21,909 bases of DNA, taken from the IMG/VR virus record IMGVR_UViG_3300020406_000031, positions 1-21,909 of that record. One strand, given 5' to 3'. The notes beneath the pieces were generated by a model. It had not been told where the DNA came from, searched no databases, and saw only the letters and a program-made list of their open reading frames with translations. The position numbers and the translations under genes are program-made. Shown here one piece after another: positions 3 to 16,207 of this stretch. Source of the stretch: a virus. Position 1 is the first letter of the stretch. Each line of letters starts with the position of its first letter.

Positions 3-1748
3 CTGGACTTCAATGACAATATCCCGACTAGACGAAAACAAGAGGCACATATGAAAGTACCTAAGGACGCGAAGGCTCAATTAGAACGATTACTTGGCAG
101 ATTCATAAGGCATATTCCGGACTCCCCCGAGTATCATAACAGGCTTATCGAAGAACTGGAGATCATTCTCAAACTTCGCTTTGTCGATTACTTCCTCACA
201 ATTTGCGATGTACTGACGCTAACCGACGACATAACACACATGACTCGCGGTTCAGCAGGGTCTAGTCTCGTCTGTTACCTATTGGGTATTACAGACGTTG
301 ATCCCATAAGATGGCAAATACCGGTTGCACGTTTCCTAAATCCTTTGAGAGACGATTTACCAGATGTGGACATAGACTTTCCGCACTGGCAACAGACTGC
401 TGTTATGCAACGGATATTTGATAAATGGCCCGGGTATAGCGCAAGAATTAGCAACTATGTTACCTACAAGGAGCGCGGTGCTCGCAGAGAAGCGGCACGC
501 CGTCTTGGCGCATCTGGTAAACTCCCTCGCAATTTCAAGTATGAAGATTTAGATATAGACAAGGAAGAAGCAATGCGAATCGAAAGAAAACTTATAGGCA
601 AAAAGAAGGCAATATCAAAACACTGCGGAGGCGTACTTGTGTTTAAACACAAACTACCCAAGAGTCTAGTAAACGCAGACAACCAGATACTACTGGACAA
701 GAACGAAGTTGAGGACTTGGAACATCTTAAAATAGATATCCTTGCTAACCGAGGACTCAGTCAACTACTGGAGATAGATCCGGAGACTCCACTAGAAGCA
801 TATCCGGAACAGGATTACGAAACAGAACAGTTACTATGCAGTGGTAACGTTATTGGTGTAACACAAGCAGAGTCGCCAGCAATGCGCAGACTATTTCGTG
901 CTATACAACCTAAGAGCAAATCAGACTGTGTATTTGCTACTGCACTTATACGCCCTGTTGCAACAACGGGCAGACAGAAAGCCGCGTTCTTTCAGGACTG
1001 GACAGAACAACGTTTAGAGGATACTATTGTGTATGAAGATGATGCTATCCGTAAAATAGCAAAACTAATTGACTGTGATATGTATGAAGCGGACATGTAT
1101 CGTCGTGCCTTTGCAAAACGTGACGAAGAACGTGTTATGCAGTTTATGGAACGCATGGGCGACAGTGAACGCAAAGAAGAGATCATCAACGAACTATATG
1201 GACTGGGTAACTTCGGATTGTGCAGGGCACACGCCGTAAATCTTGGAAGACTGATCTGGGCACTTGCATATCAGAAAGCACACAATCCTAAGGAGTTCTG
1301 GCGTGCCGCACTGAAACACTGCCAGGGAAGTTGGCGCCGCTGGGTACACAAGACAGAAGCAAAACTTGCTGGCTGGGACTTGCGTGAACTAGGATATCCA
1401 AATGGCATAACAGAGTCACCACAAACACAATACAAACGTTATGGCTACTGGACACAACCGGAGTTCATGCCCAATATGTTTGTGCAGGAGACCTGGGGCG
1501 ATAGAGTAAATTTTGCAGGATTAGTTGCTAATGGTCGTGTATTCCGAGGAGCAGAGGGTAAGTATATTACGTTTGTTACACTGGGTATAAACAATGGTGA
1601 ATATGTTGATGTAACTATCAAACGTCCATTTAGTTACAGGGATCATGATGTAGTTGTGGGATCAGGACGTGTGCGTTATAACAACGGCAGCCAGTATATT
1701 GATTGTGTAGATGCACAGGGTTATAGACTAGAGAAGTATGTAAACTAG
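3..1748 (+). CDS. dnaE: DnaE-type (family C) DNA polymerase III alpha subunit, 5'-partial
   Basis: Replicative DNA polymerase of the bacterial Pol III alpha type. The reading frame is open through the left edge, so the ATG at 51 is internal and the gene is cut by the window; a PHP domain and first palm part would lie outside. Numbering from that ATG, I see RGSAGSSLV (66-74, DnaE RGSGAGSLV), ITDVDP (80-85), FLNP and PDVDIDF with D107 and D109 matching E. coli D401 and D403. KHCGGVLVF (190-198) follows, then KIDIL with D229 matching D555. A fingers motif like YGFNKSHA reads FGLCRAHAV. An OB-like segment (about 490-540) ends the protein. About 190 residues follow the fingers, so it is shorter than cellular DnaE. 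No exonuclease domain is visible here. It is the only gene apart from 7870-8241 on the plus strand. It probably replaces T4 gp43; no family B polymerase is in the window. Confidence 0.9.
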   Translation: MDFNDNIPTRRKQEAHMKVPKDAKAQLERLLGRFIRHIPDSPEYHNRLIEELEIILKLRFVDYFLTICDVLTLTDDITHMTRGSAGSSLVCYLLGITDVDPIRWQIPVARFLNPLRDDLPDVDIDFPHWQQTAVMQRIFDKWPGYSARISNYVTYKERGARREAARRLGASGKLPRNFKYEDLDIDKEEAMRIERKLIGKKKAISKHCGGVLVFKHKLPKSLVNADNQILLDKNEVEDLEHLKIDILANRGLSQLLEIDPETPLEAYPEQDYETEQLLCSGNVIGVTQAESPAMRRLFRAIQPKSKSDCVFATALIRPVATTGRQKAAFFQDWTEQRLEDTIVYEDDAIRKIAKLIDCDMYEADMYRRAFAKRDEERVMQFMERMGDSERKEEIINELYGLGNFGLCRAHAVNLGRLIWALAYQKAHNPKEFWRAALKHCQGSWRRWVHKTEAKLAGWDLRELGYPNGITESPQTQYKRYGYWTQPEFMPNMFVQETWGDRVNFAGLVANGRVFRGAEGKYITFVTLGINNGEYVDVTIKRPFSYRDHDVVVGSGRVRYNNGSQYIDCVDAQGYRLEKYVN

Positions 1749-3271
1749 TAGGGCCTATAAGCATCTAAATCAGGAATATAGTCCACCATCATAATATTTC
1801 TTGCACTATCCATAATGTCGTTCCATTTAAAAAACTTCTCTACTTTGTCTGGTTCAGTCTTATAGTGTTTGTAGTGTTCCAGCAATCCGTCTATGCCTGA
1901 TTTGCAGTCTTTGCCATCACTGTAGTACAGTTTAGTCTCCTGTGTTAGTCTTAAACTTTCTTTGACTTCTTCAATCATTGGACTAATAAACGCACTGTGT
2001 AGGTCCACAAAGTTGTACTGTAAATATAAATTTTCCTGAGGAAATTCTCTACTGGCAAACTTAAAGAATTCGTGTGTCCTGTGTATCCCCCAGATAGTGG
2101 GCACATGGTTCCAAGTAAACTGATGTCCTTCCTGTTTTATTCTGTGGCAATTTTCTACTATGCTATCCCAGTTACTACGCCAACGTATGTAGTTGTTTAC
2201 TATTCCATATCCATCACAACTAACACTGAAATGTAACTGTGTAAAATGTTTTGCAAGATCCCAAAACTGTTCACTAAAAAAGTTTGCATTGGTTCCTATA
2301 GTAAGTCCGAAATCCGTGTGTCCTGTATCAATACACTTGCGCATAAACTGATAAGTTTCCTTCATTACAGTGGGTTCACCACCATTAAGATATACTAGGT
2401 GTTTGTGAGTAAGTGTTTTTACATCTATAGTATTAAGTTTGTTACTATATTCATAATTGTCTCTCCAGTACTGTTGATCAGTCACAAGATCTGGATTTTC
2501 CTCAAATTCTTTTTTAAGCAAATGACTGTATAGCGGAGTACACATGCGACACATTAAATTACACTTATTACTGGAGCGTATTTCATAGTAATATGGATTA
2601 TCTATCTGCTCAAGATCCTTGACATTGCGTATACCCAGTTGTGCTATAAAATCAAGACTGTCATGCACCCTATAACTGTCCATGCCGTAGTCTTCATATT
2701 CGTAACAAGTTGAACAATTTTCAGGCATGCGTTCACCACGCAACATACGCTGTCTTATGTCCACATATTCTGGATGTGTTCGCCAGTTTTCAATTGTGCC
2801 TACGTCAGCGATCTTAGTTTTTGTTCTAGCACATAATATATTATTGCCGCCGTCATCATTGTAATTGATCCATGGATATATACAAAAACTTTTATTTGTT
2901 TTGAAGAAGTTCATCCATTCAGTATATATTTGAATATTTTTATTGTCCTTGTACTGAACATTAGTTCCCCAGTAATTACTATTACGTTCAACTTCCTGGC
3001 ATATTTTAAGACTGGATAGAAATAGTTTTTTACTTGTCCATTCTTCTAGTGGTTGATCAAGCAGAATTACCTTATCAAACTGTTTTGCAACATTGATAAG
3101 ATATCCACTACTTGCGTCTGCTATGCTACTATGATAATAACCTGACTGGTCAACATTACTGTCCTCAGTAATTAAACCTAAATTTTTACTAGAGTTTTTC
3201 CTTGCGAGATTTTCTGTTCTTGAATCTGTATCCAGAGTATTATTACCAATTACTAATACACGTTCATTCAC
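1745..3271 (-). CDS. Radical SAM protein with cysteine-rich N-terminal extension (twitch/SPASM-like)
   Basis: A 508-residue radical S-adenosylmethionine enzyme; substrate unknown. The core shows CNLMCRMC (C237, C241, C244; a CX3CX2C cluster motif) and GGEP at 297-300 for SAM binding. Before the core are C130, C147, C186 and C189 in a pattern recalling SPASM/twitch auxiliary-cluster sites, here N-terminal to the barrel. Residues 1-120 are a separate domain I do not recognise. The start is GTG inside the helicase stop region (GTGAATGA overlap). Its 3' end meets the plus-strand polymerase head on, sharing a CTAG palindrome. Similar proteins are, as I recall, common in T4-like marine phages. Ferredoxin and SufE genes in the same phage could supply electrons and clusters, which is inference. 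Confidence 0.85.
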   Translation of the reverse strand: MNERVLVIGNNTLDTDSRTENLARKNSSKNLGLITEDSNVDQSGYYHSSIADASSGYLINVAKQFDKVILLDQPLEEWTSKKLFLSSLKICQEVERNSNYWGTNVQYKDNKNIQIYTEWMNFFKTNKSFCIYPWINYNDDGGNNILCARTKTKIADVGTIENWRTHPEYVDIRQRMLRGERMPENCSTCYEYEDYGMDSYRVHDSLDFIAQLGIRNVKDLEQIDNPYYYEIRSSNKCNLMCRMCTPLYSHLLKKEFEENPDLVTDQQYWRDNYEYSNKLNTIDVKTLTHKHLVYLNGGEPTVMKETYQFMRKCIDTGHTDFGLTIGTNANFFSEQFWDLAKHFTQLHFSVSCDGYGIVNNYIRWRSNWDSIVENCHRIKQEGHQFTWNHVPTIWGIHRTHEFFKFASREFPQENLYLQYNFVDLHSAFISPMIEEVKESLRLTQETKLYYSDGKDCKSGIDGLLEHYKHYKTEPDKVEKFFKWNDIMDSARNIMMVDYIPDLDAYRPY

Positions 3272-4658
3272 TCTTTAATCCTGCTAACATATCCTTTAGT
3301 TTACTGCTCTGTACACTAGCAGTAATTTTGCCTGCTTCCTCATCTGGTGCTTCAACTATGCCGCTGTCTTTGTTTTTAAGTTGATCATATATACTTGAAC
3401 TTTGCTTCTTAAATTGTTTATATTCTTCATCATCACCTAAATCTCGAATGCGTAAACTTTCAACATCAAACTCAAGATCAATCTTTTGTCCAACACCTGA
3501 ACTGCTTCTAGTTTTCATAAGTTGCAATTGATAGCGTCCACGTTCACGCATAGCACGACTTGTAAAGATTCCAAACACATTGTCTGCTGTATTAATTTTA
3601 CTAAGTCCGCCAGCAATATGCGAATGATCAAACTCGATCTCATCCACTGCGCCTCTATTAAGTTGCGATGCTGTTACAAAAACACAGTTCAGTTCTTTTG
3701 CTAGATTGCGTAGTTCTTCACTAACGTACTTATCTTTAACAAACAAATCACTAGGACTTACTCTTGCACTTACAGGCATAAGCAAATCTAGATAGTCTAT
3801 CAGTAGGAAGTCCAGGTTCCAACCATTTTTAATCTGTAGTTCCTTAAGATATGCACGAACATCATTAACGTTGCTCTGTGCTGGCATGTATTTAATCTGC
3901 AGATTACCAGCCTTCTTGCCTGTCATACGCACTTTCATTTCAACAGTGTCAAGATCCTTGAATATTTCTTTTGTACTTACATTAGTTAGCATGCTGTCAA
4001 TACGCATAGCACTTAGTCCTTCACTAAGTTCAAGCGTTAGATATACACCATTCAATCCACTTGTTACCCAGTTTACTGCTAGATTCTGCATGAACAAACT
4101 CTTGCCACTGCCACTTCCACCAGCAAAAATATTAAGTTCGCCTTTGTTCATACCGCCAAACAGTTTACGATCCATAGCGGGCCAGCCTGTTGTAATCTGT
4201 CCATTGTTGTCCTTTAGTGCCATCAATCTTGCACGAGGATCTTCAAAGTAGTCTGTGCCCATGTCCTTTGTTAAACTGATCTGCACAGCGTCTTTAATTA
4301 GTTTTTCTACAGGATCATATGTGCCTTTCTCCAGTAGATCTGCTGCTTTAAGTATCGCACGTTCTAGTTCTTGCCGCTTTGTAAAGCCTTCAAATTCATC
4401 AAGGAACCAGTCATTGTGTTGTTCTGTAATGTCCGGAACAGGCTTTAGTTCAACACCTGTTACTGCCTGCACTTGTTCATATGTGGGCAGTGTTTTGTGA
4501 TCATCGCTGTGTGTTTTTATAAACTCCGCTGTGTCTCGGAGACTCCTGTCAAAGTTTTCTACATTGTATATATTTTGCACACGAACATAGTTCTGTGCAT
4601 CATTCATCATCATTTCTAAAAACAGTTTTTGTAAATCTGCTGTGTATTCTTTACTCAT
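3264..4658 (-). CDS. gp41: DnaB-family replicative helicase, T4 gp41-like
   Basis: Hexameric 5'-3' replicative helicase that unwinds the fork ahead of the polymerase and works with the gp61-like primase two genes upstream. The 464-residue protein has an N-terminal helical domain, then a RecA-like core with Walker A GGSGSGKS (about 180-187) and Walker B LLIDYLDLL (D288). A conserved region with SQLNRG and HIAGG lies further on. The length fits gp41 of T4-like phages. I chose the ATG at 4658 because it forms an ATGAGTAA overlap with the preceding stop; a GTG 21 bases upstream is possible. It overlaps the radical SAM start by 8 bases, so the two are probably translationally coupled. Confidence 0.9.
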   Translation of the reverse strand: MSKEYTADLQKLFLEMMMNDAQNYVRVQNIYNVENFDRSLRDTAEFIKTHSDDHKTLPTYEQVQAVTGVELKPVPDITEQHNDWFLDEFEGFTKRQELERAILKAADLLEKGTYDPVEKLIKDAVQISLTKDMGTDYFEDPRARLMALKDNNGQITTGWPAMDRKLFGGMNKGELNIFAGGSGSGKSLFMQNLAVNWVTSGLNGVYLTLELSEGLSAMRIDSMLTNVSTKEIFKDLDTVEMKVRMTGKKAGNLQIKYMPAQSNVNDVRAYLKELQIKNGWNLDFLLIDYLDLLMPVSARVSPSDLFVKDKYVSEELRNLAKELNCVFVTASQLNRGAVDEIEFDHSHIAGGLSKINTADNVFGIFTSRAMRERGRYQLQLMKTRSSSGVGQKIDLEFDVESLRIRDLGDDEEYKQFKKQSSSIYDQLKNKDSGIVEAPDEEAGKITASVQSSKLKDMLAGLKSE

Positions 4659-5490
4659 AATATTGTTTAAGTCCTTCACTATCTGGAAATGTATTTAATC
4701 CCCAGCATTTTAATTGCACACCCTGTTGGCGTAAATGATACTGTATCATTGCTTCATGCACAACGTCGCCCGCTAGTTTACTAGGTTTTTCACGTTTATA
4801 TTTTACATAATTATTCCAGTCTTGCCAAATTTTTTCCTGACCATTACTCCAGTGTTCACACATGGATTTGAATTTAGTTTCATTTGTAATTTTGCATCCT
4901 GTGTATTCCGTTATAATTCTCACACTGCGTTCAAAGTCACTGAATATATCCGTAATTGTGTCTAAACACAACATGTCTAATCTATCCGCTGTTTCCCATT
5001 GTGTAGTCATTTCAGGCAAGTACCAATCCATAAGATACATACTAATATACTCTCTTAGTTCCCAGCGTTCTAGTTCACCAGTATTTTTCCATTGACTACT
5101 ATTTTGTTTTGGCAAAAACCAATCAGGATAGTCCGGTACTTTCTGTAGTGTTATTATACTAAATTCACTACTAATATTGTTACTAGGACCTATATATATT
5201 TGCTTCCCGGGTTGACTGTTGCAATATTCTAATACTTCCTTGCCTTTCATATCAATCATGGGTACATTGGGTGTGAACACATTATCAGGATACTCTACAT
5301 AATCATGTGCAAGTAGTCCTGCTTTAGTTTTTGGATGCCACTGTTTATTGAAAGCATGACTGGTTACTGCACTACTAGTTGTGTCAAAACCCCCCTCTAC
5401 TGGCTTGCAATCCAAGTTTGTACAACTACGCAATATGTGCTCTATAGTACTAGCACCACCGCCCACTTGAAAGTTAAGCCATATGTTCAC
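4651..5490 (-). CDS. Uncharacterised protein, possibly sulfotransferase-like
   Basis: A 279-residue protein between primase and helicase that I cannot assign firmly. The N-terminus is a hydrophobic strand followed by a glycine-rich turn (IWLNFQVGGGAST, residues 3-15). This recalls the 5'-phosphosulfate loop at the start of sulfotransferase-fold enzymes, but a canonical Walker A lysine is absent. The rest is rich in Trp and Tyr and looks soluble. The start is GTG in a GTGA overlap with the primase stop. A good AAGGAG lies 9 bases upstream, inside a potential hairpin (5502-5520). If it is a sulfotransferase it would modify a small molecule or glycan. The family call is a guess from the N-terminal pattern only. 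Confidence 0.6.
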   Translation of the reverse strand: MNIWLNFQVGGGASTIEHILRSCTNLDCKPVEGGFDTTSSAVTSHAFNKQWHPKTKAGLLAHDYVEYPDNVFTPNVPMIDMKGKEVLEYCNSQPGKQIYIGPSNNISSEFSIITLQKVPDYPDWFLPKQNSSQWKNTGELERWELREYISMYLMDWYLPEMTTQWETADRLDMLCLDTITDIFSDFERSVRIITEYTGCKITNETKFKSMCEHWSNGQEKIWQDWNNYVKYKREKPSKLAGDVVHEAMIQYHLRQQGVQLKCWGLNTFPDSEGLKQYYE

Positions 5491-6443
5491 CAGCGTTTTC
5501 TCCTTAAATTTATTTTAAGGCTGCTGGTTTCTCGTGCATCCACAATACTTTTAAGTGTAAATAGTTTTCCATAGCGTATAACTGCATCATTAACATCCTT
5601 AACATCAGGTTCCCAGTCAGGAAAACTAACACTCCAACCATATTCTAGTGCATCATTAATAAGTTTTTGTCCTGCTATATCTCTGTCTGGCACTAGTATT
5701 ACTTCTCTGGCCAGTGTATCTATAATCTGTGCTTGTGTTTCACTGCACTGATTGCTTAGTATGCCTACACCACCTATACACATTGCGTCAAATAATCCTT
5801 CAGTTACTACTACAAACCTAGCATTAGGCAACTGATTATCAATCCCATAACAGTAGCCATTATCATGACTAGTAAAATATTTGGGTCTTCCGGCATCGTC
5901 TATACTCCTTGCGCTAAAACCTATTGTACGCCTTCCCCATTTAAAAGGAACAATTACACGCTTCCACATACCTGCAGGTTGACTGTTACTGTACATAAGT
6001 TTATCCACAGGGATACAACGCCTTAGTGCATATTCACGAATGTTGTCCGGAAGTTCTGATGTTGCTCCTTCAGGCAAAGGCCTACTCTTAAATTCTATTT
6101 TAAATTTTTCTTCTTCAACGTCTTCTACAACCACTGTTTCCTTAATGCGTAGTGCTTCTATGTTTAACATCTGGCGTGTATTTTCATCCACACCTAACCA
6201 GGTTAACAGTTTACGCATTTTGAAACTAATGTGTCTGCCAGGTTGCCAGCCTGTTTTAAAGTTGCAGTTAAAACAGTGATAACTCACTGCATCACCATTT
6301 GTAATGATACCGCCTCTGCTTCGCTTGTCCTGACTTTCACCATTATGATGACAGCATACAGCGTTGAACGAAATCCAGCCATTGGTAGTTCGTTTTTGCT
6401 TGCCGGGCAAACTATCTAATACTGCTTGTTGTATACCATTCAT
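5487..6443 (-). CDS. gp61: DNA primase, T4 gp61-like
   Basis: Primase that makes RNA primers for lagging-strand synthesis with the gp41-like helicase. The 318-residue protein starts with a CHC2-type zinc-binding region (C30, H33, C57, C60). A TOPRIM domain follows with VVTEGLFDA (E215) and the DRD motif (D253, D255), which bind catalytic metals. The length matches T4 gp61 (about 340). The ATG at 6443 directly follows the TAG of the upstream SGNH gene, and the 3' end overlaps the next gene by 4 bases, so it is part of a continuous operon. All expected key residues are present. Confidence 0.88.
   Translation of the reverse strand: MNGIQQAVLDSLPGKQKRTTNGWISFNAVCCHHNGESQDKRSRGGIITNGDAVSYHCFNCNFKTGWQPGRHISFKMRKLLTWLGVDENTRQMLNIEALRIKETVVVEDVEEEKFKIEFKSRPLPEGATSELPDNIREYALRRCIPVDKLMYSNSQPAGMWKRVIVPFKWGRRTIGFSARSIDDAGRPKYFTSHDNGYCYGIDNQLPNARFVVVTEGLFDAMCIGGVGILSNQCSETQAQIIDTLAREVILVPDRDIAGQKLINDALEYGWSVSFPDWEPDVKDVNDAVIRYGKLFTLKSIVDARETSSLKINLRRKRW
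5502..5520 (-). promoter_or_regulatory. Hairpin covering the ribosome-binding site of the 4651-5490 gene
   Basis: On the minus strand a perfect 7-bp inverted repeat, CCTTAAA and TTTAAGG, encloses a 5-base loop. The 3' arm holds the AAGG half of the AAGGAG Shine-Dalgarno sequence for the GTG start at 5490. Folding would hide the site unless ribosomes finishing the primase gene open it. The stem is A/U-rich and weak, so this is a hypothesis of translational coupling. Confidence 0.35.
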
Positions 6444-7869: not shown

Positions 7870-8241
7870 ATGCCACCGTTAGCGGAAGAAATATTTGAAA
7901 AGTATCCTTTTCTAAGTTTGGTTACCTATGGTGGTCAAGAATATGTCGGGATAGTACAAAATCAGGACGACACTGTACTCAGCATGTATGATTATAGTAG
8001 ACTGCCTGTCGAACTAAAAGAGACTTTTCTTGCACTGGGGGATACGTGGTGGTGGGAAAGCAACAGAATGATTCCTATCAACCTTTTTTTGAAAAAAGAC
8101 TTTAATACGTTTGCAAGTTTTTTAATTACATTTAATATTAGAGACACACAAGTAGTGCGAGGACCCAGTGTTAGCATTGCAGATCTTGCAAAGAAACGCA
8201 GTAAACGTAGAAATATTCAATTGGTTAAAAAAGTAAAATAA
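7870..8241 (+). CDS. Conserved T4-like phage protein of unknown function
   Basis: A 123-residue protein with strongly protein-like sequence (EIFEKYPFLS, YGGQEYVGIVQN, WWWESNRMIPIN) and a basic C-terminus (KKRSKRRN). I recall small proteins of this pattern as conserved in T4-like marine phages with no known function. The central segment could form a small beta barrel and the basic tail could bind nucleic acid; both are inference. It is the only plus-strand gene inside a 20-kb minus-strand block. It has a TATAAATA box 41 bases upstream, a weak TAAGAG ribosome-binding site, and a 25-base convergent overlap with the DUF3307-like gene. Confidence 0.8.
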   Translation: MPPLAEEIFEKYPFLSLVTYGGQEYVGIVQNQDDTVLSMYDYSRLPVELKETFLALGDTWWWESNRMIPINLFLKKDFNTFASFLITFNIRDTQVVRGPSVSIADLAKKRSKRRNIQLVKKVK

Positions 8242-8576: not shown

Positions 8577-8840
8577 TTAATGTACCGTCGGGCCTCCGTC
8601 TGAATCATCCATGTCAAAATATTTGTAAGCATTGTGAAGATCATCGCTCAGTGTATCACCAACAGTTTTTAACATTTCCTTAATCTGATCATCTTCTAAA
8701 AAAGTTTTGTATAAAACCATACTGTGTTTTAGTAGCATTGTTGCCATATACATAAAATCCTCATCACTGTGAAGTTCCTGTTGTATATGCTTAACTAACT
8801 TATCCTGTATTTCACTCAAACGCTTGTTATTATCCGCCAT
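8577..8840 (-). CDS. Small acidic helical protein, unknown
   Basis: An 87-residue protein I do not recognise. It appears all-helical, with a charged N-terminal helix (KRLSEIQDKLVKHIQQE), a Met-rich helix (MYMATMLLKHSM) and an acidic C-terminus (FDMDDSDGG). No metal or nucleotide motif is seen. It starts 11 bases inside the mini-DnaE gene with a strong GGAGGA ribosome-binding site, so the two are probably made together. A partner role for the mini-DnaE is possible but untested. Confidence 0.65.
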   Translation of the reverse strand: MADNNKRLSEIQDKLVKHIQQELHSDEDFMYMATMLLKHSMVLYKTFLEDDQIKEMLKTVGDTLSDDLHNAYKYFDMDDSDGGPTVH

Positions 8841-9402
8841 TTTTTTCCTCCAGTATGTTCATGTGTACTGCTACTAGTTGTGCGTAAGCCACACTGTGGC
8901 TCTTCTTAAAACTATAACTATCCTGTCCCGCACTCTGCCATATAGTTTTTGCAACCTCTGCCCAGGGTAATCCTATTAGATGTCTTTTTGCAGGACGTAT
9001 TACTGCTAGAAACATAGCCATGCGTGGAACACTTGTAATGTCCTCAGGCATACGAGCCGCTGTCTCAAAATGTTTTCCTACATGTATTAGTTGTTCAAAG
9101 AATGCTTGCTCCTGTAACCGAGCCCAGTTAGGTTCTCTCATAAGTTCCACTAGATGTAGTTCGTTTCGTACATGTTCATATACACCTACGTTAAGTAGAT
9201 CAAGTTTAAAGTAACCTAATTGTTCCGCATGTTTATGATCCAGTGTAGCAAGTCCATCATGAGCTACGGGTATATCTGTAAAATATACACCCGTGTTATG
9301 TTTATTACCGTTCTCCAGTCTTGCACCAACACCCTTGATGTGTTTAGTCAATTGTGTGCGATCACCAAAGTCAATGTCTACATCTGGCATATCAAAGTTC
9401 AT
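8830..9402 (-). CDS. Miniature DnaE-like protein (Pol III alpha palm/fingers motifs)
   Basis: A 190-residue protein that keeps the key DnaE motifs in order. PDVDIDF (6-12; D9 and D11 match E. coli D401 and D403) is followed by KHNTGVYF (34-41, like the HAGGVVI strand). YFKLDLL (64-70; D68 matches D555), a compressed region ending in RPAKRHLIG (136-144), and YSFKKSHSVAY (163-173, like YGFNKSHAAAY) follow. The gap from D11 to D68 is 57 residues, against about 120 in the large polymerase here. PHP, thumb, most of the fingers, clamp-binding and OB regions are missing. It is intact, with ATG coupling to its neighbours. I recall similar short proteins in T4-like marine phages, normally unnamed. Whether it polymerises, regulates the large enzyme or does something else is unknown. 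Confidence 0.75.
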   Translation of the reverse strand: MNFDMPDVDIDFGDRTQLTKHIKGVGARLENGNKHNTGVYFTDIPVAHDGLATLDHKHAEQLGYFKLDLLNVGVYEHVRNELHLVELMREPNWARLQEQAFFEQLIHVGKHFETAARMPEDITSVPRMAMFLAVIRPAKRHLIGLPWAEVAKTIWQSAGQDSYSFKKSHSVAYAQLVAVHMNILEEKNGG

Positions 9403-10246
9403 ATCTCACGCCTTCCCATACTTTGGTAGGATTTAAATCCTGTGTGTTCGTTGGATATTCTTGAGAAATTTCTATTTCGTATCCAAGATGCTGTTCGATC
9501 AAAAAATCCAAGTATGATTGTTCATATAAACAAAAATTACTAATATCCATATTAGTATTACTAGTATAACATTGAAATGCAAGTTCTACAAGTTTTCTAG
9601 ATTGTATTGTATTTTGTTTTCTATCTAAAAATGTCTGTTGATGATGTGCGATATCTATTTTGTATGTGTATCCAAGTTTAATTAATAATTTTTCTACTTG
9701 TTTACAAAAAACTTCCTGATCGTAAAACCAGGCAAATTTAAAAATATTTTCAATGCTTTGCCTATTTAATATATCTTCCTGACATTCAAAAAAAGTTTTT
9801 TCTGTTACCTTAATTAAATTTTTAAAGAATTCCCTCATACCTCGGATATGATCATTTTTAAAAATATCAACTTGTTTTTTGATATTATTTTTTATAGTTT
9901 GCGCATTTTTTGTTTTCTTATTCAATACTTTTTCTATATCAGCAAAATCTTTAATAGTTAATAAATCTAATCCAAATTCTCCAGACGCAAGCATCCAATG
10001 CCATAGCAATATGTAAAGATCTGAGTGGTCAATACTTATATAAACAAAAATGTTATTTTCATCACTAAGTGAAAGATCATGTGGGTGATGATGATCAATT
10101 ATTCTTTTTGATCCTATAGATCTATGTGCACCGTAATTACTTCCATAAAAATCAAAATCTTCAATTTCACCACTCGCTACATGACAACATCTTGTCAAGA
10201 AGTTACCATGTGTTGCACCCTGGAATAACAAAATTGGTAATGTCAA
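9392..10246 (-). CDS. AT-rich uncharacterised protein
   Basis: A 284-residue protein I do not recognise. The N-terminus is a hydrophobic strand plus turn (ILLFQGATHGNFLTRCC, residues 5-21), loosely like the opening of sulfotransferase or P-loop folds but without a Walker A lysine. The middle is Lys/Ile/Phe-rich and helical. Base composition is unlike its neighbours: 25 of 120 bases are G or C at 9781-9900 by hand count. That suggests later acquisition. Start is TTG in a TTGA overlap with the zinc-finger gene stop, with GAGG 7 bases upstream. It ends 11 bases inside the mini-DnaE gene. Confidence 0.6.
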   Translation of the reverse strand: MTLPILLFQGATHGNFLTRCCHVASGEIEDFDFYGSNYGAHRSIGSKRIIDHHHPHDLSLSDENNIFVYISIDHSDLYILLWHWMLASGEFGLDLLTIKDFADIEKVLNKKTKNAQTIKNNIKKQVDIFKNDHIRGMREFFKNLIKVTEKTFFECQEDILNRQSIENIFKFAWFYDQEVFCKQVEKLLIKLGYTYKIDIAHHQQTFLDRKQNTIQSRKLVELAFQCYTSNTNMDISNFCLYEQSYLDFLIEQHLGYEIEISQEYPTNTQDLNPTKVWEGVRYEL

Positions 10247-10974
10247 AGCCCTGCCTCTTTAAGAATATGTTTTACCCATTCTGTGTCCGCAAAGTAGTCT
10301 ACAAACTTGCGCTTCCAGAAGTCTGGATCAATGTATGGAAATATCATTTCTATTTGTTCCGTGCTTAGTTTATCCAGTGCCGCTTGACCACTGTCACAGT
10401 TAAAAACAATCCATGCACTGATACGTCCTGTTACTATGTGTTGCACAAGAAGATTACTGTTTACATAGTTAAAGTAATGGTTGAACACACTAGTCTTTTC
10501 TTCTGCCCAGTTTTCCATAGTCTTGATACTACGCTCCAGTGCATCCTGTGTTGCTTCTTTTCGCAGATGTTCCATAAGATATTCCTGATATACAGCATCT
10601 TTGCACCAGTGATCTAATTTTTTATTGCTTTTGATTACCCAGTCAATAAACTTTTGGGTGTTAATTGCACGAATAGCAACCATGTGTCTTCCAAACTTTA
10701 CAAATGCATTGTAGTATGGAGACTCACAAAAGTCACTGTATGTCTTAAACTTGGCACTGCCCTGACTAAGTTCATAAAAACGCAAGTATGCAGTCATACC
10801 CAGTTTTACTCCTGCTTCGTCCTCCTGTTGCGCACGTCGCTTGGGCTCACACAAATGCGCAGCCAGTGTGCTTTCCTTACGAAAACTCTTGCCACAGTAT
10901 TTGCATATATAATCTTTTTGTTCCATACTATAGTTAATTATAGCATCTTTTACAATTGCTGTAAAGTGATTCAT
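10243..10974 (-). CDS. Zinc-finger protein conserved in T4-like phages, unknown function
   Basis: A 243-residue protein with an N-terminal C2HC finger (C24, C27, H40, C42) of the classic CxxC-x12-H-x-C shape. A long helical domain follows with conserved-looking stretches (AYLRFYELSQGSAKF, YYNAFVKFGRH, IDPDFWKRKF). I recall this arrangement from cyanophages, where it is annotated as hypothetical. The LLVQHIVTGRIS region loosely recalls the C-terminal half of the gp59 helicase loader, which is only a suggestion. I chose ATG 10974, which forms an ATGA overlap with the upstream SGNH gene, over the ATG at 11001. Its place among replication genes fits a nucleic-acid role. Confidence 0.75.
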   Translation of the reverse strand: MNHFTAIVKDAIINYSMEQKDYICKYCGKSFRKESTLAAHLCEPKRRAQQEDEAGVKLGMTAYLRFYELSQGSAKFKTYSDFCESPYYNAFVKFGRHMVAIRAINTQKFIDWVIKSNKKLDHWCKDAVYQEYLMEHLRKEATQDALERSIKTMENWAEEKTSVFNHYFNYVNSNLLVQHIVTGRISAWIVFNCDSGQAALDKLSTEQIEMIFPYIDPDFWKRKFVDYFADTEWVKHILKEAGL

Positions 10975-11633
10975 AGATATTTCTTCACTTCCTCGGCCCA
11001 TGAGCTTTGGCAGTTATGGTTTAAATGAAATCCATCATCCGAGAACCCGTTATTCTCTATAGCAAATTCATATGGTGTTATAGGAACATAGTGTGTGCGA
11101 TCGAGCCTATCTAAGTAGTCTGTACACTGTCCTAGGCTTTGTTCTGAATAAACTTTTGTAATATCATATATGAATGTGTATTTGTATGGAATCTGTTTAC
11201 TATTCAAATATTCAATGAACATTATTACGTGATACATATTAAGTTGACTAAAATACTTAGTACAGTCACTGGTATATACTGTTTTAAATATGTCTTTTAC
11301 AGGCCCTGTTAGTTTATCAATAGCACCCAGTGGACCTCCTGATTGCACAAGATTCACATCTCCATACGGGCCCATATCATATCCTATAGGAAAACTAAAA
11401 TAATAGTTGGCTGGGTGTTGATCTTGTGGTAACGGCACACTGATTCTATTCAATCCTGTAAACATTACAAATACACTATCGTAATCTGGCAACACATGTA
11501 AACCTGTTCTGGTAATCCATGCATTATCAACACCGCCTTTAGCAAACACTGTATAAGGTTCGTCAAACATAGTGTCATGCCAAATTGCTTGATCTCTGTC
11601 TGTATAACTACATCCAAGTATAAGTTTAGTCAC
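10971..11633 (-). CDS. SGNH/GDSL-like hydrolase protein 2
   Basis: A 220-residue SGNH-like protein with GCSYTD (7-12, S9 in the nucleophile place), KGGVDNAWI for block II, FTGLNR for block III, and a DDGFHLN C-terminal motif whose D-x-x-H spacing is canonical. It has the most complete block V of the three in the window. GTG start, overlapping the gp62-like gene by 8 bases. Its 3' end is coupled by ATGA to the zinc-finger gene. Substrate cannot be read from sequence; acyl or acetyl removal from a glycan is a reasonable guess for the superfamily. Confidence 0.7.
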   Translation of the reverse strand: MTKLILGCSYTDRDQAIWHDTMFDEPYTVFAKGGVDNAWITRTGLHVLPDYDSVFVMFTGLNRISVPLPQDQHPANYYFSFPIGYDMGPYGDVNLVQSGGPLGAIDKLTGPVKDIFKTVYTSDCTKYFSQLNMYHVIMFIEYLNSKQIPYKYTFIYDITKVYSEQSLGQCTDYLDRLDRTHYVPITPYEFAIENNGFSDDGFHLNHNCQSSWAEEVKKYL

Positions 11634-12328: not shown

Positions 12329-12815
12329 TAGAGACGATCTCGTTTTGTTTGTTGATTTCTTTTGCGCAGAAAACGCAACGGGGATTATCCACTTCAGACT
12401 CAATTGGAATAGCGAGGATCTGTCCTTGTTTGAGTTTCGGGAAGAACCATTTGACATCACTGTATATATCCACTATGTTTACTGGCATGTAGTCATGTCT
12501 AAAATCTCCAAGCGGATTAAACACAAATGCGTCAAATCCTCTATCATTCAAACTTGAAAAGTTAAGCATTTCTAAATCACCAATCTCACGATCACCTATT
12601 AGAATTTTCCAATCAACAGGCATGCGTATTTTATTACCGCCTACATCTAACACAACAGCAGGCGAATTAAAACTTTCTAAAAATATTAAGGGTATAAAAA
12701 AGTAATCCGGATCCGCTGGATTGCTGTTATCCAGTATTGCAAAACGAAGATCATCAACTTCGTCAGGTATATCATTCATTTCATATGCCGTATTATCCAG
12801 GGTAAGAATACGCAT
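12312..12815 (-). CDS. Conserved hypothetical protein with C-terminal CxxC
   Basis: A 167-residue, mostly beta-strand-like protein that I do not recognise. It is acidic and rich in Asp-Pro and Phe-Asn-Pro turns. A CVFC motif at 147-150 could hold metal or a disulfide, but a second pair is missing, so a metal site would need dimerisation. ATG 12815 shares a base with the ClpP stop (TAATG), so it is coupled to the protease gene. No enzyme motif is visible. Confidence 0.65.
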   Translation of the reverse strand: MRILTLDNTAYEMNDIPDEVDDLRFAILDNSNPADPDYFFIPLIFLESFNSPAVVLDVGGNKIRMPVDWKILIGDREIGDLEMLNFSSLNDRGFDAFVFNPLGDFRHDYMPVNIVDIYSDVKWFFPKLKQGQILAIPIESEVDNPRCVFCAKEINKQNEIVSIDRAW

Positions 12816-13387
12816 TAGTATACCTCAACGATTTTATCCGCAATGCCATACTTAATTGCTTCTTCAGCACTAAGCCATTTGTCCTCGGGCGGCAATAATA
12901 CTTCTCGTATCTTTTTCTCCGTAAGTCCAGTGCATTTCTTATAGTGTTCCAGCATGCGTTCACTACTAAGTTCGAATTCTCGCATTGTAGCAAAAAGTTC
13001 ATGCTCTTTGCCTCTTGAGCCCCAACTATATTGATGACTTAGGATACTTGTGTTGGGTGTTATTACACGACGTCCTTTTTTACCAGCCATAAATGTTAGC
13101 ACACCGGAACTTGCTATAAGTCCTATACCCACAGTCTTAATTGGAATAGCACTGCCTTTCATTGTATCAATTAGTGCAAATGCAGCATGAACGCTGCCAC
13201 CTGGTGAATTAATAATTAGTGTTAGTTCCTTAGGACGTTGGCGTTTAGGCAATAGATTCATTTCGATAATCCACTTTACAAGTGGTGAAGTAGATTTGTT
13301 ATCGAATCCCTCACAAAAATATGCCATGCCTGAATTGTACATAGTTTGCCCAAACTTGGGCATGTCTTCTGTTTCTTGATCACTCAT
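12815..13387 (-). CDS. clpP: ClpP-family serine protease
   Basis: A 190-residue ClpP-type peptidase with an intact catalytic set: S93 in IASSGV (E. coli ASMGA), H118 in SHQY and D169 in EDKWLSA. The NSPGGSV substrate-binding loop is at 60-66. ClpP forms a barrel that needs an AAA+ partner to unfold proteins. No ClpX or ClpA is in the window, so it would use a host unfoldase or act alone, for example on capsid or scaffold proteins. T4 has an unrelated head protease (gp21), so this is an addition or a replacement. ATG two bases after the UvsW stop. Confidence 0.88.
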   Translation of the reverse strand: MSDQETEDMPKFGQTMYNSGMAYFCEGFDNKSTSPLVKWIIEMNLLPKRQRPKELTLIINSPGGSVHAAFALIDTMKGSAIPIKTVGIGLIASSGVLTFMAGKKGRRVITPNTSILSHQYSWGSRGKEHELFATMREFELSSERMLEHYKKCTGLTEKKIREVLLPPEDKWLSAEEAIKYGIADKIVEVY

Positions 13388-13388
13388 A

Positions 13389-14846
13389 CTAGTTCCAATC
13401 TGCTTTGTCTACCGTAAATGGATAGTTTGCTTCCTTATAAAATGCTTTACGTTTTGTTAAATGTCTTTTAGCGTATTTTGCTGTACTTGTTATGTCCCAG
13501 ATCTGTACAAAATCTTTGTCTTTAGCCTTACGAATGCCACGGCCAATGCTCTGTATGACTCGTACAAAACTTTTACCAGGCTCAACCAACACCAGATTAA
13601 AGATGCGAGGAATATTGATACCCACAGCCGCAACGCCGTAGGTTGCGATAATGACCTTTCCTTTAGCAGTTGATATCTCGTCATATTCTGCTTTTCTGTC
13701 TGCACCTTTCGTACTCCCTGATACAAAGACACTGTCTGGTATTGCAATCTGTAGTGCTTCTCCTGCACTTATACGATCCACAAGTATAAGTGTGTTGCCA
13801 CTGTCCTTAATACTATTGCATAAACTGCCTATCCAGTCTATCCTGTCCTTGTTTCCCAGTAAGTATTTAAGCTCACTCTGATAATTTGTATGTGCAATCA
13901 CATCAATCATTTGCACAATATTCACATGGCACTGTGCAAGCACACCCTTGTCCTGTAGTTCTTTTGCACTGATCTGATTTATTACAGGCCCAATACTACA
14001 CACTATGCCTACGTTCTCAAACTTTTCCTTGGGCACTGTGCCTGTTAGTCCCCAGCGTATGGGTATGTGACTCATTACACCAGTTAGCAGTGCAGTCAGT
14101 GCATCTGCTTTGGCCATGTGTACTTCGTCAACCATAATACACACCACATCCTCTAGGAACTCTCCTATGCTTATGGGTGCTACATGATTCTTTGTATTTT
14201 TTAACAGTATGTTTAGACTTTGCCAAGTACATATGGTGTGTGTTTTACCGAACTCCTTACGGTCACCATAGTAAACACCCACATCCAGACCCAAGTTAAC
14301 ATAGTCTTCTTCCGTTTGTGTAACCAAACTTTTGTTTGGCACAATAACAATGCTTCTACCATACTGTTCAACACTAGCACTAAGTGCCGCAGTCATTAGT
14401 GTTTTGCCAGCACCTGTTGCTACTTCCTGCAAACTCTGTGGATTTGCTAGAAACTGATTTATAGTTTCAACTTGGTAGTCACGTAATATAATAGGCTCTC
14501 CTTCAGCAGGATGCCCCTTTGGCCACGCTACATTACTAAAACTATCTTCCTGTACAGGCTCTAATGTGTATTCGTTCTGATATTCACGCAAGTCATTTAG
14601 CGTAACATCATAGCCCTGTTGCTGTAGTACAGGAAGAATGTCCGGGAGGAGATTAATGTATGTACTCCCTCCAAGTTGAAAGAATGCTTTTTTGCCGTCC
14701 CAGCGTCCCAGTTTTACTGCGGGCAAGTAACGAGCATAGGGTACTTCATACTTGAACATGTTACTTAACTTGCGTCTAGTATCCAGATCAAGTCCTTCAA
14801 TCTTTACGTTTACTTCATCTTTAACGTGTAGTATTGCAGGCTTCAT
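13389..14846 (-). CDS. uvsW: UvsW-like superfamily 2 helicase
   Basis: A 485-residue SF2 DNA/RNA helicase like T4 UvsW, which handles R-loops and stalled forks and helps switch from origin- to recombination-dependent replication. After a UvsW-type N-terminal domain (LGRWDGK near 46-52) come the Q-motif-like RDYQVE (122-127), Walker A ATGAGKT (143-149), DEVH (240-243), GLTGT and the motif VI stretch QSIGRGIR. Length matches T4 UvsW. It overlaps the SGNH gene 5' of it by 26 bases. All helicase motifs look intact. Confidence 0.9.
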   Translation of the reverse strand: MKPAILHVKDEVNVKIEGLDLDTRRKLSNMFKYEVPYARYLPAVKLGRWDGKKAFFQLGGSTYINLLPDILPVLQQQGYDVTLNDLREYQNEYTLEPVQEDSFSNVAWPKGHPAEGEPIILRDYQVETINQFLANPQSLQEVATGAGKTLMTAALSASVEQYGRSIVIVPNKSLVTQTEEDYVNLGLDVGVYYGDRKEFGKTHTICTWQSLNILLKNTKNHVAPISIGEFLEDVVCIMVDEVHMAKADALTALLTGVMSHIPIRWGLTGTVPKEKFENVGIVCSIGPVINQISAKELQDKGVLAQCHVNIVQMIDVIAHTNYQSELKYLLGNKDRIDWIGSLCNSIKDSGNTLILVDRISAGEALQIAIPDSVFVSGSTKGADRKAEYDEISTAKGKVIIATYGVAAVGINIPRIFNLVLVEPGKSFVRVIQSIGRGIRKAKDKDFVQIWDITSTAKYAKRHLTKRKAFYKEANYPFTVDKADWN

Positions 14847-15465
14847 ATAATTTCTCTGCTATCCTTTTGTGTCCTTCTTGTAGTGGATGTCCACCAGTGC
14901 CTTGTGTTGTTCCCCAAGTCCATTCTACAAAACCAGTGTTTGGCCAACCAACAAATTTTTCTGAATCAACAAGTGTTGTGTATTGTTCACTATCAGTATA
15001 GCGTTCCTGATTATCAAATGCTGTACACATTATATAATCTATTTCGCGATTTTGCAAGAAACTCTGTAGTAGAATAACCTGTCTTAACCAACGTCTATAT
15101 TCATGTTCTGGATTATTGTGAAGTGTGATATATTTAATAAGCTCGTGTCTATAAAGTAATTTACCTGAACGATCACCACTAAATGTTTTGCTATTACAGC
15201 CTGGCCAGATATCATAGGCACCCCATTCATCTGCGTGTTCCTGTCTACCGCAACTTGTCCAGGCCACTACTACTAGTTCAGGTTTGTGTTTAGCAACTGC
15301 TTGTATTGTTTTCTTAACAATATACTCATTGCCTATTCCAGGGCGACCTTCATTTATTAGTTCACAATCTAACTGATTAGCAAGTAGTATTGGCCACGCC
15401 TGTGTACTAGGATCTTCAAGTTCCTGTCCATATGTAAAACTATCCCCTATTGTGTATAGGATCAT
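14821..15465 (-). CDS. SGNH/GDSL-like hydrolase protein 3
   Basis: A 214-residue SGNH-like protein: GDSFTYG (7-13, S9), a GRPGIGNE stretch for block II with Gly, VAWTSCGR for block III, and GTGGHPLQEGH for block V. The catalytic Asp before the His appears replaced by Gly, so activity may be weak or use a Ser-His dyad. ATG in an ATGA overlap with SufE. It follows the ferredoxin and SufE genes but has no obvious link to iron-sulfur chemistry. Confidence 0.72.
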   Translation of the reverse strand: MILYTIGDSFTYGQELEDPSTQAWPILLANQLDCELINEGRPGIGNEYIVKKTIQAVAKHKPELVVVAWTSCGRQEHADEWGAYDIWPGCNSKTFSGDRSGKLLYRHELIKYITLHNNPEHEYRRWLRQVILLQSFLQNREIDYIMCTAFDNQERYTDSEQYTTLVDSEKFVGWPNTGFVEWTWGTTQGTGGHPLQEGHKRIAEKLYEACNTTR

Positions 15466-15857
15466 AGTCTTTGTAACCTTGTCTGAATATTTCCTATTAG
15501 ACTACTAAGTCCATTACGTCTTTGTGCAGTAAGTAGTTCTTTTATACCTAGTTGATTTAGATCATCGCGGGTAATGGCTAGTGCTTCAGATAAACTAATA
15601 TCACTAAAACAATCACATATTACACTTGTTATACCCTTAGTAATCATGGCATCACTGTCATAGTATACACGCACTATGTCCTCGACCAGTCCTACGTCAA
15701 TCCAGATTTGACTCATGCAACCTTTTACTAGTCTATCTTCTGTGCGTAATTCTACAGGTAAACTTGTTTTATTTTTAGCAAGGTCAATAATATACATTAA
15801 TCTATCATTGCCTTCTAAAAAACTAAATTCGTCTCGCCATTTTTCTATTTTGCTCAT
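15462..15857 (-). CDS. sufE: SufE-like sulfur acceptor protein
   Basis: A 131-residue protein matching SufE, which takes persulfide sulfur from the cysteine desulfurase SufS and passes it to the SufBCD scaffold. The acceptor cysteine is C47 in VKGCMSQIW (E. coli GCQS). The C-terminal ARRNGL-like element reads [11 protein letters not shown]. Length is near the family norm of about 140. It overlaps the ferredoxin stop as ATGA. A phage SufE would raise host cluster assembly if host SufS and SufBCD are present; neither is in the window. Confidence 0.88.
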
Positions 15858-16207
15858 TCTTCAGGTCCTGGATTTTCACTAAAATCGTTTGTTTTATCTT
15901 CTTCATATCCCATTGCTGGATTTAAACTGTCCGCATCAGGTAAAGGAGGTCTTTTTTGTGTGGCATTAGGCCATATTTCGCTAAACTTGCGATTGATTTC
16001 CAACCAGTATTCCAAGTTTTCATCCATATCACTGTCTGGTTGAATTGCTTCTGCTGGACATTCAGGCTCACACACACCACAATCTATACATTCATCTGGA
16101 TGTATTACTATTGTGTTTTCCCCTATGTAAAAGCAGTCAACAGGACAAACTTCAACGCAGTCAGTATATCTGCAGTTTATGCATTTTTCATTTACTATAT
16201 ATGTCAT
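15854..16207 (-). CDS. fdxA: 7Fe-8S ferredoxin, FdxA-like
   Basis: A 117-residue two-cluster ferredoxin. C9, C17 and C50 match the ligands of a [3Fe-4S] cluster, and C21, C40, C43 and C46 those of a [4Fe-4S] cluster, with extra C12 and C25 as in Azotobacter-type FdI. The VCPVDCF and [12 protein letters not shown] blocks and the C-terminal extension of about 60 residues look like alphaproteobacterial FdxA, from memory. It is the first gene after the terminator at 16235-16269. A TATAAT/TATAAATA promoter region ends 10 bases before the ATG and I see no Shine-Dalgarno sequence, so the leader would be very short. Likely host-derived. Confidence 0.92.

Follow-up and report, generated by a model that had tools for sequence, protein, structure and literature searches.

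The window analysed here, a stretch of 21,909 nucleotides, corresponds to positions 6558-28466 of contig C9 (42 kb) of assembly G000 (1.93 Mb). Its minus strand contains, at 8830-9402, an open reading frame with an ATG start that encodes a protein of 190 amino acids, exactly within the limits given by the initial annotation; on the plus strand of this interval stops close all reading frames. The protein is called the C-half in what follows, and its proposed partner, encoded elsewhere, the N-half. The relevant genes of the window and the motifs of the C-half are:

51..1748, plus strand: unsplit PHP-less DnaE-type polymerase, 565 amino acids, with its own TRGS, PDVDIDF, KIDIL and RAHA motifs
3264..4679, minus strand: DnaB/gp41-type replicative helicase, a conserved neighbour
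5487..6443, minus strand: DNA primase, a conserved neighbour
7870..8241, plus strand: convergent gene of phrog_11637, function unknown, located 3' of the C-half gene in BF, Paride, Phosso, G009 and G010
8830..9402, minus strand: 190-residue protein of phrog_11778, probable C-terminal half of a split minimal Pol III alpha
8884..8910, minus strand: FKKSHSVAY (residues 165-173), equivalent of DnaE FNKSHSAAY; hhalign block 151-176 to 741-767
8986..8997, minus strand: RPAK (residues 136-139), by eye a candidate equivalent of the DnaE RPGP motif
9193..9207, minus strand: KLDLL (residues 66-70); D68 corresponds to E. coli D555
9289..9303, minus strand: KHNTG (residues 34-38), equivalent of DnaE KHAGG; hhalign block 29-74 to 505-561
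9367..9387, minus strand: PDVDIDF (residues 6-12); D9 and D11 correspond to E. coli DnaE D401 and D403
13389..14846, minus strand: UvsW-type helicase, a conserved neighbour on the other side of the C-half

The sequence of the C-half, MNFDMPDVDIDFGDR...KHNTGVYF...GYFKLDLLN...AVIRPAKRH...DSYSFKKSHSVAY...HMNILEEKNGG, gives a full-length match to the PHROGs family phrog_11778, 'DNA polymerase' (residues 7-187, E 4.3e-49). Pfam returned no match for it, and searches of the PDB sequences with the single sequence and with a profile yielded nothing relevant; its connection to DnaE was seen only by profile-profile and fold comparison. Local alignment with hhalign to a profile made of E. coli DnaE (NP_414726.1) and 25 DnaEs from one phylum produced three matches in order, in which residues 3-96, 29-74 and 151-176 correspond to E. 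coli 397-494, 505-561 and 741-767, respectively. Their scores were 26.7, 36.3 and 31.8, the best of 100 column-shuffled profiles reaching 23.3; in the match of residues 3-96 only the start, the PDVDIDF block, is meaningful, because the tail overlaps the second match. The global mode gave no meaningful alignment between the C-half and DnaE, and hhalign showed no counterpart of E. coli ~425-500 or ~645-740. The homology to DnaE is beyond chance, and these collinear matches above shuffled controls bear out the proposal of the initial annotation that the protein derives from a DnaE palm and fingers with most of the polymerase gone. The motifs on which that proposal was based, PDVDIDF, KLDLL and KKSHSVAY, do stand in DnaE order at residues 6-12, 66-70 and within 165-173, and the three catalytic aspartates are kept: D9, D11 and D68, the counterparts of E. 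coli D401, D403 and D555, do not vary among 38 non-redundant relatives. Also invariant in these 38 proteins are, among others, D7, I10, H35, G38, K66, L70, R136, P137, K139, F165, K166, H169 and Y173. The dN/dS of the C-half against its relatives is 0.04-0.10, so that the gene is under purifying selection and is not debris. The single-chain palm, thumb and fingers of full-length DnaE or PolC are, however, not found in the 190-residue protein, and the GRGS loop is absent from it.

A GRGS half is encoded separately, by a standalone reading frame of ~171 amino acids at G000:C6:7840-8355 on the minus strand (phrog_11127, E 2.6e-48). The phrog_11127 family (171 amino acids) aligned to the GRGS part of the large DnaE of the window and ended just before PDVDIDF; searching with it revealed counterparts in Phosso, Paride, BF and the IMG/VR contigs G002, G003 and G005. 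The match of the N-half to PF07733 ends at position 94 of 260, and its profile aligned by hhalign with E. coli 335-393 and no further (score 45.1, shuffled maximum 22.7). GRGS is invariant in the N-halves. The break between both proteins is fixed, the N-halves ending at ~393 of the E. coli numbering and the C-halves starting at ~397; in 12 phages the end of the N-half is no more than a few residues away from ...EFLR/K/N, and in 12 the C-half starts shortly before DxDID. Once joined, the complementary halves have the DnaE catalytic motifs, apart from the stretch of the fingers that separates RPGP from KSHS, and are devoid of the PHP, thumb, clamp-binding and C-terminal parts. Among the fetched loci no natural fusion gene of the two was found, which has no bearing on their partnership either way. 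The initial annotation had taken the 190-residue protein for a paralogue and excluded that it was half of a split enzyme; a separately encoded GRGS half and a fixed break do not support this view.

Structure prediction, which had been proposed as a check, agrees with the DnaE assignment. The 12 best PDB matches (Foldseek) of the AF2 model of the C-half (pLDDT 81) are all bacterial DNA polymerase III-type chains, and so are those of the N-half model (pLDDT 87), a few of the matched entries bearing only the title 'DNA polymerase'. The probability reached 0.97 for the C-half and the E-values are modest, the best being 0.007 for the C-half and 0.018 for the N-half. In the isolated C-half model residues 1-20, including the DxD strand, have low confidence, which agrees with, without proving, a strand that would need a partner.

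Both proteins are widespread. Tblastn located the C-half in at least 90 phage records, the majority of them from jumbo phages that infect enterobacteria, Pseudomonas, Agrobacterium or Sinorhizobium, and in over 250 stretches of IMG/VR; a divergent member used as query added a Stenotrophomonas phage and two 141-kb Alishewanella phages. It is conserved over its full length down to about 35-38% identity in phages of many hosts. Short relatives in marine T4-like phages, mentioned in the initial annotation, are indeed present in many marine contigs, and the family extends to jumbo phages and to a 141-kb phage as well. The N-half appears in at least 95 phage records, the weakest matches including full-length DnaEs of unrelated phages. 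When co-occurrence in phage records was compared by genus, the counts among the matches listed were near-identical (C-half/N-half: Escherichia 34/34, Pseudomonas 11/11, Klebsiella 11/10, Erwinia 8/8, Salmonella 8/8). Both halves occur in 13 single genomes or large contigs (W01-W07, G002, G003, G005, G009, G010 and G015) and together in the single record of Alishewanella phage Slickus01. All complete phage genomes tested that carry the C-half also encode the N-half, and a profile detects the C-half in Salicola SCTP-2 and Vibrio 2.275.O, two phages found through the N-half. Several large IMG/VR fragments hold one half only, as expected of fragments, and neither half was found in the 484-kb phage LR756508, where a relative of the large DnaE is present. 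A family B polymerase is also encoded in all complete genomes examined. It is worth mentioning that several GenBank records of Erwinia, Cronobacter and Pectobacterium phages label the C-half 'putative membrane protein', a label that looks wrong.

In most genomes the genes of both halves lie tens of kilobases apart. The C-half belongs to a conserved gene order, UvsW, small genes of phrog_11279/11758/11058, C-half, convergent phrog_11637, primase and DnaB. This order is preserved in the window and in BF, Paride and 121Q, and for the most part also in Phosso and the marine contigs. The N-half has a GroES-like gene, a gp44-type clamp loader or both nearby in the assembly of the window, in BF and Paride, and in the Vibrio and Salicola phages. 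Both are thus located in replication regions, but in different ones. In a 141-kb Alishewanella phage (OQ508957.1 66000-82500) the two genes are ~11 kb apart with a clamp-loader gene between them.

The large DnaE of the window is complete in contig C9, with 565 amino acids, an ATG at window position 51 and no PHP domain. Its motifs, TRGSAGSS, PDVDIDF, KIDIL, KHCGG, LIRPV, YRRAFAK and RAHAVN, are near-invariant across ~80 loci, RAHA replacing the usual KSHS. The protein is a complete enzyme, separate from the split pair, as the initial annotation implied. Its close relatives are mainly in marine contigs, with a 37% relative in the 484-kb uncultured phage LR756508. The C-half is not a recent duplicate of this gene; it resembles the large DnaE (28% over 74 amino acids, E 0.023) no more than it resembles other DnaEs. 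At 20 loci of sufficient length the C-half is found 5-10 kb from the large DnaE, on the opposite strand and in a conserved arrangement; three large-DnaE loci with at least 8 kb of room had no C-half. The 565-residue PHP-less DnaE is present in G000:C9, G001, G007, G009 and G010, and carriers outside this marine subclade (G002, W01-W07) have no large DnaE.

Within G000 the N-half and the C-half are on different contigs, C6 and C9, and C22 encodes a family B polymerase of 887 amino acids with PolB and exonuclease domains. The tetranucleotide compositions of C6, C9 and the part of C22 read are mutually correlated (r 0.95-0.99; 0.24-0.30 versus C17), and in the compared stretches the three contigs agree with G009 and G010 gene for gene. 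Probably they derive from a single phage, or from closely related ones, and ended up in the bin of a bacterial genome. Attribution of the C6 N-half to the phage of the window rests on binning, composition and synteny, from which the single contigs G009 and G010 are independent. On G009 (328 kb) the family B polymerase is found at 105 kb, the N-half at 142 kb, the large DnaE at 226 kb and the C-half at 233 kb; G010 (203 kb) likewise encodes the split pair, the 565-residue PHP-less DnaE and a family B polymerase. Hence, the presence of a complete large DnaE does not rule out a split enzyme. Two more DnaE genes of G000, at C20:14610-15407 and C48:27219-28022, encode proteins of 1151 and 1144 amino acids with PHP-like N-termini; their scores on PF07733 are far below those of DnaEs from the same phylum, so that they may be of viral origin or highly divergent.

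The reading we favour, with a probability of about 80%, is that the 190-residue protein is the Mg2+- and template-binding C-terminal subunit of a two-protein minimal C-family polymerase of large T4-related phages. The C-half would supply the three catalytic aspartates and a finger remnant with the KKSHS motif, and the N-half, of ~171 residues, the initial portion of the palm, which includes the WGxGRGSS nucleotide-binding loop. From the sequences we infer that the halves would assemble physically, the N-half docking at the DxD strand of the C-half at the ~393/~397 break, and that a single NTase-fold palm would be rebuilt without PHP, thumb, most of the fingers, clamp-binding and C-terminal domains. 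Such a pair would add nucleotides to primers by short distributive synthesis near the primase and helicase. Distributive behaviour is expected of an enzyme with no thumb and few finger residues, so that the best guess for its role would be primer extension, gap filling or repair, the family B polymerase presumably acting as main replicase. Against this reading stand the distance between the two genes in most genomes, their location on different contigs in G000, the modest Foldseek E-values, the low confidence of the DxD strand in the isolated model, and the thumb and finger residues that the C-half lacks. The literature searched contained no bench test of a split enzyme of this kind.

It is possible, although clearly less probable, that the halves form an NTase active site but that the resulting protein is not a template-directed DNA polymerase; it could act as a nucleotidyl transferase, process primers or ends, or regulate the family B replicase. 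The C-half has neither the thumb nor ~95 finger residues including the LRRAMGKKK region, so that polymerase activity may be weak or lost, and the need for it in replication is not obvious when all complete genomes examined have a family B polymerase. Yet KKSHS (K166, H169) and GRGS show no more variation than the catalytic aspartates, and both half-genes sit in replication neighbourhoods.

The roles put forward by the initial annotation, in which the C-half alone, or acting on the large DnaE, would be a paralogous decoy, a template-binding regulator or a minimal polymerase, are improbable. Proximity of the complete PHP-less DnaE at the 20 marine loci would suit them, but G002 and W01-W07 have no large DnaE on which the protein could act, and the GRGS loop missing from the C-half is carried by a partner in the same genomes. 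As carriers outside the marine subclade do not have the large DnaE and all complete carriers tested have the N-half, these roles were rejected as the leading view. The small size of the protein compared with a DnaE of 1160 amino acids might also indicate a decaying fragment of a former DnaE gene. This can be practically discarded in view of its dN/dS, its full-length conservation and its conserved gene order.

Iyer et al. (2021, PMC7824862) described, by computation, a split minimal Pol III alpha from group 2.2 jumbo phages, and the 190-residue protein belongs to that published family. As in that paper, two standalone and distantly encoded proteins are found here, an NTP-binding N-terminal and a Mg2+/template-binding C-terminal one, and a family B polymerase is encoded in the same genomes; both systems were matched by description. 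The family is therefore not unnamed, as the initial annotation had supposed, since in addition to that description it is called 'DNA polymerase' in PHROGs and 'DnaE-like DNA polymerase III alpha' in the Phosso record. Two aspects are added here. Iyer et al. describe phages with the split version as devoid of further Pol III domains, to which the marine subclade with its 565-residue DnaE is an exception: the co-occurrence of the split pair, an unsplit C-family enzyme as third polymerase and a family B enzyme departs from the 2021 description. Moreover, unlike in the jumbo phages described there, the pair is also found in a 141-kb phage, below jumbo size.

Compared with bacterial DnaE (E. coli NP_414726.1), the joined halves share the aspartate triad, GRGS, KHxxG, RPxx and KSHxxxY in the same order, but they are two chains of ~171 and 190 amino acids instead of one of 1160, without PHP, thumb, most of the fingers, clamp-binding, OB and C-terminal domains. 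The N-half alone had probably been noticed before its partner was recognised, as the 172-residue 'truncated' Pol III alpha CBB_328 of phage CBB (PMC5259590) and as gp316 of Atu_ph07 (PMC6102473), mapped here by size and description; the passages on these two proteins make no mention of the C-half. In phage MIJ3, from the same wider group, a family B polymerase is split (PMC6892783); that case concerns another polymerase family and is intein-associated, whereas no sign of an intein was seen here. Yutin et al. (2024, PMC11348598) report two polymerases of different families per genome in only two phage subtrees, and in the sections of that study covered no mention of a split C-family enzyme was found.

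If the halves reassemble, the result would be a C-family polymerase reduced to its palm and template-binding core, and thus a direct test of what Pol III requires for DNA copying; Iyer et al. regard the split enzyme as a candidate model for an early form of Pol III (PMC7824862). With fewer than 220 residues each, the two chains should express easily and the 2021 prediction would be testable quickly. The marine subclade, in turn, offers a natural comparison of split and unsplit C-family enzymes within one phage. We tentatively propose, as a rather doubtful extension, that its large phages use three DNA polymerases: the family B enzyme, the PHP-less unsplit Pol III alpha, and a two-subunit Pol III alpha of ~360 residues assembled in trans, which would be the smallest active C-family enzyme. 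The two C-family enzymes could then share labour, for example primer extension versus lagging-strand synthesis or repair.

Other genes of the window deserve a comment. The protein encoded at 10243-11001 on the minus strand (phrog_11058) has a C2H2-like zinc finger and is a candidate replication protein; its gene adjoins that of the C-half in BF, Paride, Phosso and the marine contigs. A radical-SAM-like protein of 508 amino acids (1745-3271, minus strand), whose Pfam match is below the curated cut-off, is encoded between the large DnaE and the replicative helicase, and a ClpP-type protease (12815-13387, minus strand) within the replication gene block. At 15462-16207, on the minus strand, a SufE domain protein is encoded beside a ferredoxin, which in a phage suggests phage-encoded iron-sulfur metabolism.
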